From OCS116 cluster bacterium AG-390-I16 (GTDB lineage: Bacteria > Pseudomonadota > Alphaproteobacteria > MED-G09), in NCBI GenBank assembly GCA_003279705.1, contig QCGZ01000008.1, forward strand, positions 1 to 44,043: DNA of 44,043 bases. Direction: 5' to 3'. Below are positions 8,369 to 11,648 of this stretch, piece by piece. Under the pieces are notes generated by a model. It was given only the letters and a program-made list of their open reading frames with translations, did not search any database and was not told the origin of the DNA. The position numbers were made by a program, and so were the translations under genes. The stretch's first letter is position 1. Each line of letters begins with the position of its first letter.

Positions 8369-8541
8369 TCAATCTTTCTCGCTTCATCTGGTAGCATTAT
8401 CGGAATTCCATCCTTTACTGGGTAGGCTAAGCCAGCTTTTTTGCTCACTAACTCATTTTTTTCTTTGTCCCATGATAGTGTTTCTTTTGTTAAGGGACAA
8501 ACAAGAATTTCTAATAATTTTGGATCAATTTCTTTGCTCAT
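8365..8541 (-). CDS. Trm112/YcaR-like small protein
   Basis: A 58-residue Trm112-family protein. Sequence features: N-terminus [20 protein letters not shown], then [21 protein letters not shown] and C-terminal PDEAR. The family is usually a small zinc-ribbon-like fold; here the first CxxC site is reduced to a single CP (Cys15), so zinc binding is doubtful, as in YcaR-type members. In eukaryotes and archaea Trm112 activates methyltransferases; the bacterial role is not settled. The gene is 6 nt downstream of the LON-domain gene and ends in a TTAA shared with the stop of the converging hydroxylase gene. LON-domain plus Trm112 after cnoX is a recurrent alphaproteobacterial order. Confidence 0.9.
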
Positions 8542-8547
8542 AATATC

Positions 8548-9198
8548 TCACTGTATTTGTTCCGTGCTTGGGCTAGATGTCATTGACATTTCTGTCATCG
8601 CGATCAACATTTCACTTCTTTTTGATAATGTTTCCGCCTCAAGTAGTGCTTGTTTTTCTCGAGTTTTATAGGGACTTAGAATGCATAATGAATTTACAAG
8701 TAATTCTGTTGATGAGTTGCTAATAGCATCCCAATCAATAGTAAGATTATTATACTCTAAGTATTTTTTAAGAGATTCAATAAGTTTCTCTCTTTCAACT
8801 TCCTCTTCCCCACACCCTTTAATAAGATCAGAGGAAAATCTCTCATAATTTACTTGGAACTGTCTATATGGTGTAACCACCTCAAGTTCTTGGCCAATAT
8901 TAAATCTGCATATACCAGATAATGTAATCAACATTCTGCTATTAGCAACTTCACTATATGATGTAATTTTTCCTAAGCATCCAGTATTATAGAGCTCATC
9001 ACCCTCATCTTTGTTTGATTGAATCATTGCTATTAGTCTGTTATTTGACATTGCGTCATCAACCATTTCTAAATATCTGTTTTCGAAAATATTAAGGGGT
9101 AGTTGTGTCCTTGGAAGCAATAGAGCTCCTGCCAGAGGAAAGACCGAAATCTTAGGCGGCAACTCACTAATATTTTTAAACTCTTTAAATGATTTCAT
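8548..9198 (-). CDS. LON N-terminal (substrate-binding) domain protein
   Basis: Stand-alone LON substrate-binding-domain protein, 216 residues, lacking the AAA+ and protease parts of Lon. Characteristic start: LPPKISVFPLAGALLLPRTQLPLNIFENRYLEMVDDAM, followed by LIAMIQ, LGKITSYSEVANSRMLITLSGICRF and the late LVNSLCILSPYKTREKQALLEAETLSKRSEMLIAM. Such proteins are assumed to take part in protein quality control, but no activity is established. It sits 1 nt after the cnoX stop and 6 nt before the Trm112-like gene, so all are probably translated from one transcript that begins at the RHH-PII gene. Confidence 0.92.
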   Translation of the reverse strand: MKSFKEFKNISELPPKISVFPLAGALLLPRTQLPLNIFENRYLEMVDDAMSNNRLIAMIQSNKDEGDELYNTGCLGKITSYSEVANSRMLITLSGICRFNIGQELEVVTPYRQFQVNYERFSSDLIKGCGEEEVEREKLIESLKKYLEYNNLTIDWDAISNSSTELLVNSLCILSPYKTREKQALLEAETLSKRSEMLIAMTEMSMTSSPSTEQIQ

Positions 9199-9199
9199 T

Positions 9200-10132
9200 T
9201 TAACTAAATAGCATTGATGACAGCTTTTTCCTACCTTCTATAACTAGAATATCTTCATTTCCTAAAATATTAAAAATCTCAACAAGTTGCTTTCTCGCCG
9301 CACTGTCGTTCCACTTTGGGTCAAATTCGATAATTTTTAATAATTCATTAATTGCATTTTCATTTTCACCCTTTGCCAATAGTAACTTAGCAAGATCTAT
9401 CCTTATTTGATGATTCTTTGGATTTTTATCAATATTTCTTCTAAGTTCATCTTCTTGCTCATTAGATATTGGATTATTTTTTACATTTTTAAAAACCTCA
9501 ACCTCAGATCTAACTGAGACAAAATCTTGATTATTTTCAGAATTAGCCGGAAGGTTGTTAATAATATCTTCAGCCTCATCTATTTGATCGCTTCTTAGAA
9601 GACACCTTGCCAACATGGATTTTGCTGAGATATTTTCAGGCTCAATTTTAAGAATTTCAGAGAAAACTAAAGCAGCTGTTTCTATGTCACCATCATCAAT
9701 ATATTTCTTACCAGCAATAATATTTTCTTCTATAGCCGAGGAGTTATTCAAAGAGCTAATTTTATTTATAAACTCTGCAATATTTTTTTCTGGCTGTACG
9801 CCAATAAATCCATCTACAGGCTGACCATCATTAAAGGCCATTACCGCAGGTATAGATTGAATTTTCAATTGTTGAGCTACCTCTGGGGATTCATCTATAT
9901 TCATTTTGGCTAAAATAACATTGCCATTTTTTTCTTTTACAATTTTTTCTATTACTGGTGTTAGCTGTTTACATGGTTCACACCAAGGTGCCCAGAAATC
10001 AACAATTACAGGTGTTTCTTTTGATCTCTCAATTACATCTGACATGAAATTTTCTGTTATAACTTCTATTATTACAGAATTTCCATTCATAGAAACATCT
10101 TGTGAATTATTGTTGAATCCTTCTATTTCCAT
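9200..10132 (-). CDS. cnoX: CnoX (YbbN)-type thioredoxin-TPR co-chaperone
   Basis: Cytoplasmic redox-linked holdase that passes substrates to GroEL and DnaK. 310 residues: an N-terminal thioredoxin domain (about 20-130) with the active site FWAPWCEPCK (Cys51 and Cys54), then TPR-like helices (IAGKKYIDDGDIETAALVFSEILKIEPENISAKSMLARCLL and later repeats to the C-terminus). E. coli CnoX lacks the full CxxC pair, while alphaproteobacterial versions such as that of Caulobacter keep it, as here, so reductase activity is likely. It follows the RHH-PII gene by 2 nt and precedes the LON-domain gene by 1 nt. Confidence 0.93.
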   Translation of the reverse strand: MEIEGFNNNSQDVSMNGNSVIIEVITENFMSDVIERSKETPVIVDFWAPWCEPCKQLTPVIEKIVKEKNGNVILAKMNIDESPEVAQQLKIQSIPAVMAFNDGQPVDGFIGVQPEKNIAEFINKISSLNNSSAIEENIIAGKKYIDDGDIETAALVFSEILKIEPENISAKSMLARCLLRSDQIDEAEDIINNLPANSENNQDFVSVRSEVEVFKNVKNNPISNEQEDELRRNIDKNPKNHQIRIDLAKLLLAKGENENAINELLKIIEFDPKWNDSAARKQLVEIFNILGNEDILVIEGRKKLSSMLFS

Positions 10133-10134
10133 TT

Positions 10135-10629
10135 TTAGAGAGCATCGTCCTGGGTTTCACCGGTTCTTATTCTTATGGCTTGGTCTATATTGCTTACAAA
10201 TATTTTTCCATCTCCAACTTTACCGGTTTCGGAACTTTTGCTTATAATATTTACAACCTGATCTAGCTTGGTTGCTGGGATAACAATTTCAATCTTAATT
10301 TTTGGTACTTCTGTAGTTTTGTATTCAGCCCCTCTGTAAATTTCAGTTTGTCCCCTTTGTCTTCCAAATCCTCTTATTTCTGTTGCAGAAAGTCCTTCTA
10401 TTCCAATATCAATTAATGCATTTCTTACATCTTCATATTTATGAGGTCTTATTATTGCTGTAATCATTTTCATTGTTTCACTATCCCCAGAGCGTAATGC
10501 TATTTTAACAAGTCTTCTTATTGCCTCAGAATGAGAAGGTAGATCAGTTTGCTCCCTTCGCCATTTATCAACATCGTTTCTGAACTCCGTAGAGGCCACT
10601 AATTGTATTCTTTGATCTTGTTTTTTCAT
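10135..10629 (-). CDS. Ribbon-helix-helix domain fused in frame to a complete PII nitrogen-regulatory protein
   Basis: 164-residue protein with two recognisable parts. Residues 1-52 look like a ribbon-helix-helix DNA-binding domain: strand RIQLVAS, helix EFRNDVDKWRREQ, then helix SHSEAIRRLVKIAL. Residues 53-164 form a full-length PII (GlnB/GlnK) protein: MKMITAIIRPHKYEDVRNAL, EIRGFGRQRGQTEIYRGAEY with the T-loop Tyr that is uridylylated in classical PII, then TGKVGDGKIFV and IRIRTGE. PII senses ATP/ADP and 2-oxoglutarate and controls nitrogen metabolism by protein contacts. The ATG at 10629 has AGGGA just upstream. Met53 (ATG at 10473) begins exactly where normal PII proteins start and has GGGGA 10 nt upstream, so a separate PII might also be made. 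No glnA or amtB is adjacent; cnoX follows by 2 nt. Confidence 0.88.
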   Translation of the reverse strand: MKKQDQRIQLVASTEFRNDVDKWRREQTDLPSHSEAIRRLVKIALRSGDSETMKMITAIIRPHKYEDVRNALIDIGIEGLSATEIRGFGRQRGQTEIYRGAEYKTTEVPKIKIEIVIPATKLDQVVNIISKSSETGKVGDGKIFVSNIDQAIRIRTGETQDDAL

Positions 10630-10696
10630 TTTCCCTTTTTTTATAATACATAATTATAAAGAATAATAAAATAGCTTTATAAAATTTGTATAAATC

Positions 10697-10724
10697 TTGA
10701 CCAATGTTATTTACATCTTATTAA
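10697..10724 (+). promoter_or_regulatory. Candidate sigma70-type promoter for tRNA-Gly
   Basis: TTGACC (10697-10702) is followed after 16 nt by TATTAA (10719-10724). Initiation would fall near 10731, about 24 nt before the tRNA. This is the best -35/-10 match in the 125-nt gap between the divergent RHH-PII gene and the tRNA, but it is a pattern match only, in AT-rich DNA. Confidence 0.4.
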
Positions 10725-10754
10725 CTTTGAAATAATGTCACACATAAAATTATT

Positions 10755-10829
10755 GCGGGTGTAGCTCAGTGGTAGAGCATCACGTTGCCAACGTGAGGGT
10801 CGAGAGTTCGAATCTCTTCGCCCGCTCCA
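10755..10829 (+). tRNA. tRNA-Gly (anticodon GCC)
   Basis: Full cloverleaf of 75 nt including an encoded CCA (10827-10829). Acceptor arm GCGGGTG pairs with CGCCCGC (10819-10825), discriminator T. D arm GCTCAGTGGTAGAGC; anticodon stem-loop CACGTTGCCAACGTG with anticodon GCC; T arm GAGAGTTCGAATCTC. GCC reads GGC and GGT glycine codons. It is isolated, with no other stable RNA gene next to it. Confidence 0.97.
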
Positions 10830-10884: not shown

Positions 10885-10900
10885 TAGAGATATATCTCTA
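10885..10900. repeat. 16-bp perfect palindrome with flanking TATATCTCT copies
   Basis: TAGAGATATATCTCTA is a perfect inverted repeat that includes the TAG stop of the 67-residue gene (10898-10900). The 9-mer TATATCTCT also occurs at 10861 and 10931, besides 10891, giving starts 30 and 40 bp apart. A further 5-bp hairpin (ATCTC/GAGAT) lies at about 10863-10881. It could be a weak terminator for the small-gene transcript or a protein-binding site; AT-rich sequence makes chance a serious possibility. Confidence 0.45.
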
Positions 10901-11101
10901 ATTCCAACTGGTGAAGTCAGCAAATAGATCTATATCTCTAAATATCTTTTTATTTTCCTCTAATTGATCAGTTAGAGCTTTATATTCGTCTTTATTTAGT
11001 TTCGACTTGGCCAAGTGATCTAAAATAATAGTCTGATACTTAACTTGCAATAAATGTTCTCTTCTCTTCTTTTCTTCAGAAGATATTAATTGCTTATTCA
11101 T
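10898..11101 (-). CDS. Small hypothetical protein, 67 residues
   Basis: I do not recognise this protein. It is mostly helical and charged: N-terminal SSEEKKRREHLLQVKYQTII, middle LNKDEYKALTDQLEENKK and C-terminal FRDIDLFADFTSWN. No signal peptide, cysteine or membrane segment. Its ATG (11101) directly follows the TAA of the YRG-repeat gene with no spacer, so the two are almost certainly translated from one message and may be partners. It could be a small antitoxin-like or adaptor protein, but there is no direct support for that. Confidence 0.65.
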   Translation of the reverse strand: MNKQLISSEEKKRREHLLQVKYQTIILDHLAKSKLNKDEYKALTDQLEENKKIFRDIDLFADFTSWN

Positions 11102-11260
11102 TTATTGCACTTGACCTCTATACATTTTTTTATGATTTTGGTCAGAATTTAGTTTTTCAAATTTAAAACCATTATGGCTAGCGCCTCTATAAAATCCTTT
11201 ATCTAAAGATACTTTTTTTTCAGAAATTATATTTTGACTTCCTCTATATTGATTTTTCAT
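11102..11260 (-). CDS. YRG-repeat micro-protein, 52 residues
   Basis: Short gene supported by the strongest Shine-Dalgarno seen in the window, AAGGAG (11267-11272) 6 nt before the ATG at 11260. The product is MKNQYRGSQNII at the start and KKMYRGQVQ at the end, with three YRG tripeptides at residues 5-7, 24-26 and 47-49, each preceded by an aromatic, Gln or Met and embedded in basic, Asn-rich sequence. YRG spacing recalls DUF4278 proteins of cyanobacteria, but similarity beyond the tripeptide is not evident. No signal peptide or membrane segment. It forms a tight two-gene unit with the 67-residue gene. Function unknown. Confidence 0.7.
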   Translation of the reverse strand: MKNQYRGSQNIISEKKVSLDKGFYRGASHNGFKFEKLNSDQNHKKMYRGQVQ

Positions 11261-11384
11261 AGTTTTCTCCTTAAATTGTTATTAAAATATTACATATGAT
11301 ACAGAACTTACACACATAACACAGGTTTGTCAACTACATAATTATATTTTTTTATTGTTTTTATTAAAAAAATTGATAAAAGGT

Positions 11385-11545
11385 CTATTAATGGTGCTTT
11401 TTAGCTAAGAGGGAAGCAGGTTAAATGCCTGCACTGTACCCGCAACTGTAATTAGGGAGCGAGAAATCTAAAAGCCACTGGTTTATTACTGGTAAGGCGA
11501 TTTCAAGCGATGATCTATTAGTCAGGAAACCTGCCATTGTGTCGT
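11385..11545 (+). promoter_or_regulatory. Cobalamin riboswitch (aptamer)
   Basis: Adenosylcobalamin-type aptamer upstream of btuB. Conserved elements in order: GGTGC (11393), AAGAGGGAAGCAGGTT, TGCCTGCACTGTACCCGC then AACTGTAA, AAAGCCACTG, ACTGGTAAGGCG, GATGATC, and the B12 box GTCAGGAAACCTGCC (11521-11535). Short AAT/ATT pairing next to GGTGC and CCTGCC closes the base. Boundaries are approximate to about 10 nt. It is read on the + strand and ends about 105 nt before the btuB start, so ligand binding should lower receptor expression when cobalamin is plentiful. Confidence 0.95.
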
Positions 11546-11547
11546 TC

Positions 11548-11648
11548 GTTCAGGGCCGGGAATAGCTTTTTGAACAGGATTTTCCTTAGAAACGATTAAT
11601 TTTTGTTAGTAGCGAAAGCTATATTGTTAATAATATTTGTGAGGAAAA
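11548..11648 (+). promoter_or_regulatory. Putative expression platform of the riboswitch (hairpin plus anti-SD/SD pairing)
   Basis: Directly after the aptamer a hairpin GTTCA (11548-11552) / TGAAC (11571-11575) carries a G-rich 18-nt loop, placed where cobalamin riboswitches usually have the kissing-loop stem. Then TTTTCCTT (11580-11587) can pair over 8 positions, one a G-U, with GAGGAAAA (11641-11648), which is the Shine-Dalgarno of btuB. No T-run terminator is seen, so control is probably at translation initiation. The pairing is read from sequence; the switching logic is inferred. Confidence 0.55.

Follow-up and report, generated by a model that had tools for sequence, protein, structure and literature searches.

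An RHH domain fused to a complete PII protein in marine PS1-clade Alphaproteobacteria, a probable one-component nitrogen regulator

PII, one of the most widespread signal proteins known, is believed to work through contact with partner proteins. To our knowledge, the PII proteins described so far affect transcription via NtrB, PipX, TnrA, AmtR and others, not via DNA binding. The stretch of DNA analyzed here (44,043 nucleotides, referred to below as the window) carries a gene in which a ribbon-helix-helix (RHH)-like domain precedes an entire PII protein, raising the question of whether a PII protein might itself have become a transcription factor. From comparison of sequences, we consider it probable that the product of this fusion gene is a one-component nitrogen- and energy-responsive transcription factor, in which PII sensing would be coupled to DNA binding.

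An earlier note on this DNA had described one uninterrupted frame encoding both parts, with the PII protein starting at its own Met (residue 53) and retaining the T-loop TEIYRGAEY and the C-terminal IRIRTGE, and each of these points was borne out. The 164-aa minus-strand reading frame recurs at full length in relatives, the internal ATG of codon 53 is conserved, and Pfam P-II (PF00543) aligns over its whole length (profile positions 1-102 of 102) with residues 53-158 (E 6e-27), with NCBIfam GlnK/GlnB models spanning residues 53-164 and GlnK/PII structures as the top Foldseek matches (E 2e-11). The note had also suggested checking whether related assemblies keep the fusion. The family concerned is the marine PS1 clade, comprising 18 genomes in three genera, with PS1-clade/'Rhodobiaceae' marine Alphaproteobacteria as the closest named relatives. 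The full-length fusion (query residues 1-164, without stops) is present in 14 of the 18 genomes and in all three genera, at 80-100% identity; it was found in all six genomes with completeness of at least 90%, and the four genomes without a match are 62-83% complete. Five public assemblies also carry it at full length, some of which may duplicate genomes of the 18-genome set.

Table 1. Features of the fusion locus, in window coordinates
Feature	Position	Strand	Remarks
Trm112-like protein	8371..8547	(-)	
LON substrate-binding-domain protein	8548..9198	(-)	
cnoX-like thioredoxin-TPR gene	9200..10132	(-)	2 bp after the fusion gene
RHH-PII fusion gene	10135..10629	(-)	164 aa plus stop, ATG start; from the ORF and comparison with relatives
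Complete PII domain, residues 53-164	10138..10473	(-)	Pfam, NCBIfam, Foldseek; opens at the conserved internal ATG
T-loop region, fusion residues 87-110 (PII 35-58)	10300..10371	(-)	Q39, Y51 and K58 kept
RHH domain, residues 1-52	10474..10629	(-)	Alignments, profile comparison, AlphaFold2
tRNA-Gly (GCC)	10755..10829	(+)	Divergent from RHH-PII in loci checked
ORF of 67 aa immediately following the DUF4278 gene	10898..11101	(-)	Intact in four genomes; no family
52-aa triple-YRG protein, DUF4278	11102..11260	(-)	Conserved in part of genus g1 and in g2
Candidate operator TGTGTTATGTGTGTAA	11308-11323	(-)	Units in tandem with a 9-bp period; the DUF4278 start codon follows after 47 bp
-35-like TTGACA	11328..11333	(-)	4 bp upstream of the operator, pointing to the DUF4278 gene
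Cobalamin riboswitch	11364-11552	(+)	Rfam RF00174 at 110.7 bits; ahead of a TonB-dependent receptor gene

Across 12 aligned fusion sequences no indels were seen, and 36 of the 52 N-terminal residues are invariant. Between two family genomes (G000 and G013), the numbers of differences at codon positions 1/2/3 are 12/2/29 for the RHH part and 21/7/53 for the PII part; third-position changes dominate both, indicating that both parts are translated in the fusion frame and that purifying selection is acting on both halves. An in-frame stop lies 2-10 codons ahead of Met1. A frameshift or read-through artifact can be ruled out from the conserved full-length copies, the codon-position pattern and the lack of indels. 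No further RHH-PII fusion was detected in 289 genomes of the class searched with an RHH profile or among 107 inspected PII reading frames, and in a PII tree the fusions form a single clade on a long branch, although whether they stem from GlnK or GlnB was not resolved. The best explanation, inferred from these sequences and probable as a whole, is that an RHH protein was joined to PII in the ancestor of the PS1 family.

In the PII half, Q39, Tyr51, K58, G87, D88, G89, K90, R101 and R103 (PII numbering; 52 is added for the fusion) are invariant in the 12 fusions. The integrity of the ligand site is thereby supported, and with the ligand residues and Tyr51 unchanged, binding of ATP/ADP/2-oxoglutarate and uridylylation are possible. 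A match to GlnD was obtained in 6/6 complete genomes; in one it is a fragment under the cut-off. The base of the T-loop differs from that of other PII proteins, reading KTTEV at PII residues 52-56 where xVDFL is usual. A purine-rich stretch ahead of the invariant codon-53 ATG (window 10472-10500) was also noted, a possible internal ribosome-binding site from which free PII might be made.

The assignment of residues 1-52 to the RHH fold, as claimed in the earlier note, is supported as well. Taken alone, these residues gave no Pfam or NCBIfam match; Pfam RHH_1 (PF01402) matches 25 of the 54 members of the RHH alignment (best E 5e-5), and a strand - helix - DLPSRSEAIRRLV pattern is common to the joint alignment of the fusion RHH and its stand-alone relatives. 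Profile alignment with hhalign placed the fusion RHH colinear with the RHH domain of NikR. AlphaFold2 predicted for the RHH monomer an extended segment (residues 1-13) followed by helices at 14-25 and 33-49, with a pLDDT of 88.7, so that the strand-helix-helix topology expected of RHH/CopG proteins is present in the model, although strand pairing would need a dimer. A Foldseek search with the 52-residue monomer returned no significant match, which may be expected given that an RHH monomer is only half of a dimer. In a PDB profile search the top chain was of the CopG family, but at an E of 0.75; designed repeat proteins returned by a PDB sequence search were dismissed as chance matches. An AlphaFold2 model of the full fusion, built from 12 near-identical rows, reached only low confidence (58.6) and carried little information on domain packing. 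The recognition strand reads QRIQLVAS, and helix B opens with S-x-S-E-x-I-R. Within the strand R7, Q9 and V11, which we infer to face DNA by likeness to the NikR and Arc RHH structures, are invariant across the three genera in the 12 aligned fusions.

If the RHH half binds DNA, its targets might be recognizable upstream of family genes. Comparison of upstream regions yielded a direct repeat with a 9-bp period, TGTGTWRnnTGTGTWA, and its distribution was determined by pattern searches in which the reversed pattern served as control and sites were assigned to genes from coordinates. The pattern TGTGTWRNNTGTGTWA has 21 exact matches in 10 of the 18 family genomes, all in the window's genus (none for the reversed pattern): eight upstream of amtB1, seven between glnB and glnII (upstream of glnII) and six near the fusion gene. 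Allowing one mismatch gave 26 matches against one for the control, 25 of them at amtB1, glnB/glnII or fusion loci and the sole stray near ispH in G009; with this variant, sites also appear in the other genera, at amtB1, at glnB and, in two genomes, at the fusion locus. The other two genera have variants off the window-genus consensus at amtB1 and/or glnB, and a strong site is absent at the fusion locus of G010 and G013. In genus g2 the glnB site sits just upstream of a sigma54-type promoter. Two conserved sigma54-type promoters, that of torF-amtB2 and the glnB promoter of genus g1, lack the pattern. The earlier note had suggested the intergenic DNA directly before the fusion gene (10630-10754) for a binding test. 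The operator did not turn up in that DNA, and the candidate sites are that of Table 1 and others elsewhere in the genome. Whether the fusion gene regulates itself is therefore unclear, perhaps with the exception of G011.

The case that RHH-PII, in particular, binds these repeats comes from its unfused relatives. The RHH profile retrieved small stand-alone proteins from other Alphaproteobacteria and 66 loci in viral contigs; a collection of phage records gave no homologues, and plasmids five weak matches. The best unfused match in the 289 class genomes sampled is a 57-residue protein of genome G174, where a 16-mer identical to that of three PS1 genomes lies 60 bp before the RHH start codon. More generally, TGTGTAA occurs within 200 bp upstream of six of eight stand-alone relatives with the strand R-x-[QHG]-x-V, compared to 1/53 others (Fisher p 3.4e-6), and after collapsing clades the association remains at 3/4 versus 1/53 (p 5e-4). 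These p-values are somewhat flattering, because the strand classes were drawn after the first examples had been seen. One phage carries TGTGTAAGTTGTGTAT, nearly the amtB1 site, and each PS1 genome examined has a single RHH of this type, namely the fusion. Binding of TGTGTWA tandems by RHH-PII is thus supported by comparison, without binding data.

Around the fusion gene, the claim that it heads an operon with the cnoX, LON-domain and Trm112-like genes agrees with the neighbors confirmed here, and cnoX and LON are syntenic with it in other g1 and g2 genomes. That the operon does not include glnA or amtB stands as far as the cnoX operon itself is concerned, but the predicted targets elsewhere are nitrogen genes. 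The 70-125 bp upstream of the fusion consist mainly of a conserved block on the tRNA-Gly side and, in most genomes, TTATGTATWATAAA near the start codon, possibly a -10 box. Its position adjoining the start codon in most genomes suggests a very short RHH-PII leader, and the divergent fusion and tRNA-Gly(GCC) genes have a short intergenic region in common (window 10630-10829).

The candidate operator at the fusion locus precedes a small triple-YRG protein. DUF4278 (PF14105) matches nine of nine YRG relatives (best E 6.7e-6), while the window protein alone falls under the cut-off (E 0.03). This domain forms the N-terminal part of the cyanobacterial glutamine-synthetase inactivating factor IF17 and is also found in small proteins controlled by glutamine riboswitches (PMC6316151), and the DUF4278 identity thus ties the operator at the fusion locus to glutamine-synthetase control. 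Small nitrogen-regulated proteins can bind PII, as exemplified by PirA (PMC8092223); that the window protein has a functional tie to PII or GlnII is only a guess. Such triple-YRG proteins outside cyanobacteria were seen at three loci (window 11102-11260, L157 6481-6850 and L273 5643-5807), with two in tandem in G010, and weak DUF4278 matches occur in an unrelated alphaproteobacterial genus (L305 and L306, in G137 and G240). The sequence YRGAKY of genus g2 is similar to YRGAEY in the PII T-loop and might mimic it. The 67-aa ORF that follows the DUF4278 gene is broken by stops in G001 and G004.

The fusion exists alongside other nitrogen genes. Apart from it, no family genome has more than a single ordinary PII, and that one adjoins a short GSII-like glutamine synthetase. 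NtrC and RpoN are both present in the family, ruling out the idea that the fusion substitutes for a lost NtrC/RpoN system, and glnB and torF-amtB2 show GG-N10-GC sigma54-type promoters, as seen by eye. Two amtB genes were seen (loci L144, L147, L151 and L155), one behind a TorF-like porin and neither with a neighboring glnK.

Several other readings of these data were weighed. The TGTGTWA sites could be bound by another regulator, such as NtrC or an OmpR-type response regulator, with RHH-PII binding elsewhere; NtrC and RpoN are available in the family, and direct repeats are typical of OmpR-type regulators. We regard this as distinctly unlikely, since the sigma54-type promoters without the pattern rule out a general NtrC site, phage RHH proteins that share the recognition strand have these repeats ahead of their own genes, and in the sampled non-PS1 genomes no match to the pattern falls near amtB, glnII or glnB. 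It is also conceivable that at the fusion locus it is the cobalamin-riboswitch/TonB receptor transcript that comes under control of the site, instead of or besides the DUF4278 operon, given that the riboswitch starts 41 bp from the site on the opposite strand. This appears unlikely in view of the TTGACA beside the site, which in several genomes is oriented toward the DUF4278 gene, the retention of the site where the 67-aa ORF is broken, and the identity of the remaining targets, amtB1 and glnII.

Alternatively, the RHH part might serve assembly or localization, or be a vestige, leaving an ordinary GlnK-like PII that acts, for example, on AmtB. The intact PII core and the lack of an adjoining GlnK at the amtB genes examined in the family would fit such a role, yet the invariance of R7, Q9 and V11 across three genera, the purifying selection on the fusion, the correlation of the operator with RHH strand type and the altered T-loop base make it highly improbable. 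A doubtful but possible variant, compatible with the main explanation, is that translation yields two products, RHH-PII at full length plus a PII on its own that starts at Met53, which would form mixed trimers; the codon-53 ATG is invariant and the purine-rich stretch precedes it in all genomes, although charged linker residues alone would give purine richness and there are no expression data.

Returning to RHH-PII as a transcription factor, we propose that in the family ancestor PII was joined to a small RHH DNA-binding protein of phage or plasmid type, and that tandem TGTGTWA units before amtB1, glnB/glnII and the DUF4278 operon are bound by the RHH half, a step that rests on comparative genomics, binding not having been shown. 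The ligand state of PII (ATP/ADP/2-oxoglutarate) would alter how the RHH engages DNA, and uridylylation of Tyr103 (PII Tyr51) by GlnD may do so too; both steps are inferred. RHH proteins are usually repressors, and because the site also lies within the presumed DUF4278 promoter, the likeliest sign, again inferred, is negative: ammonium uptake and assimilation would be repressed under plentiful nitrogen. The main alternative is dual control, as by NtcA, which remains open because the g2 glnB site is in an upstream position. In either case RHH-PII would act beside, not in place of, the canonical GlnB/GlnD/NtrC/RpoN circuit. A PII trimer bearing dimeric RHH domains implies that trimers are cross-linked or that one RHH is unpaired, a symmetry that is unexplained. 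The earlier idea of a one-protein nitrogen-responsive regulator has thus gained strong indirect support in the form of a likely operator at amtB1, glnB/glnII and the DUF4278 gene, while the repressor sign and the ligand control remain inferences. With somewhat less assurance, we favor a fuller version in which PII is itself the transcription factor, a phage-derived RHH brought the operator specificity that created a new marine nitrogen regulon (amtB1, glnB/glnII and DUF4278), and ATP/2-oxoglutarate sensing is coupled through the trimer-dimer mismatch, for example with two PII trimers and three RHH dimers.

If true, RHH-PII, with its recognizable regulon, would switch genes directly in response to metabolites, would show a phage-type domain rewiring nitrogen control in streamlined ocean bacteria, and would offer a ready-made ATP/2-oxoglutarate-responsive regulator for biosensors. 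No report of a PII fused to a DNA-binding domain was found in the open-licence literature, which does not exclude a description elsewhere, and we know of no one-component RHH regulator with PII as its sensor. For a one-component RHH regulator that carries a small sensor domain there is a known precedent in NikR. RHH-PII resembles NikR in joining an N-terminal RHH to a small sensor of ferredoxin-like fold in a one-component, metabolite-controlled regulator, and the RHH parts are colinear. It differs in that its sensor is a full PII (a trimer, with ATP/2-oxoglutarate as ligands), the nickel-binding C-terminal domain of NikR not being found in the fusion, where Pfam instead gives PII, and in that its predicted operator is a tandem TGTGTWA repeat. 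With GlnB/GlnK it has in common PF00543, the ligand residues, Tyr51 and the T-loop core; the RHH domain and the KTTEV T-loop base set it apart. The stand-alone RHH proteins of phages and plasmids (the 57-aa protein of G174 and L185-L188, L193 and L222 from IMG/VR) have the same strand residues and upstream TGTGTAA repeats, and the fusion RHH is 47-54% identical to L115, L185, L187 and L188, but these proteins are without a PII domain. Finally, the predicted regulon resembles that of NtcA, in which an ammonium transporter, glutamine synthetase and gifB/DUF4278 come under one nitrogen-linked site (PMC6316151 and general knowledge), whereas NtcA itself belongs to the CRP family, is regulated by way of PipX and a separate PII, and is unrelated to RHH-PII.
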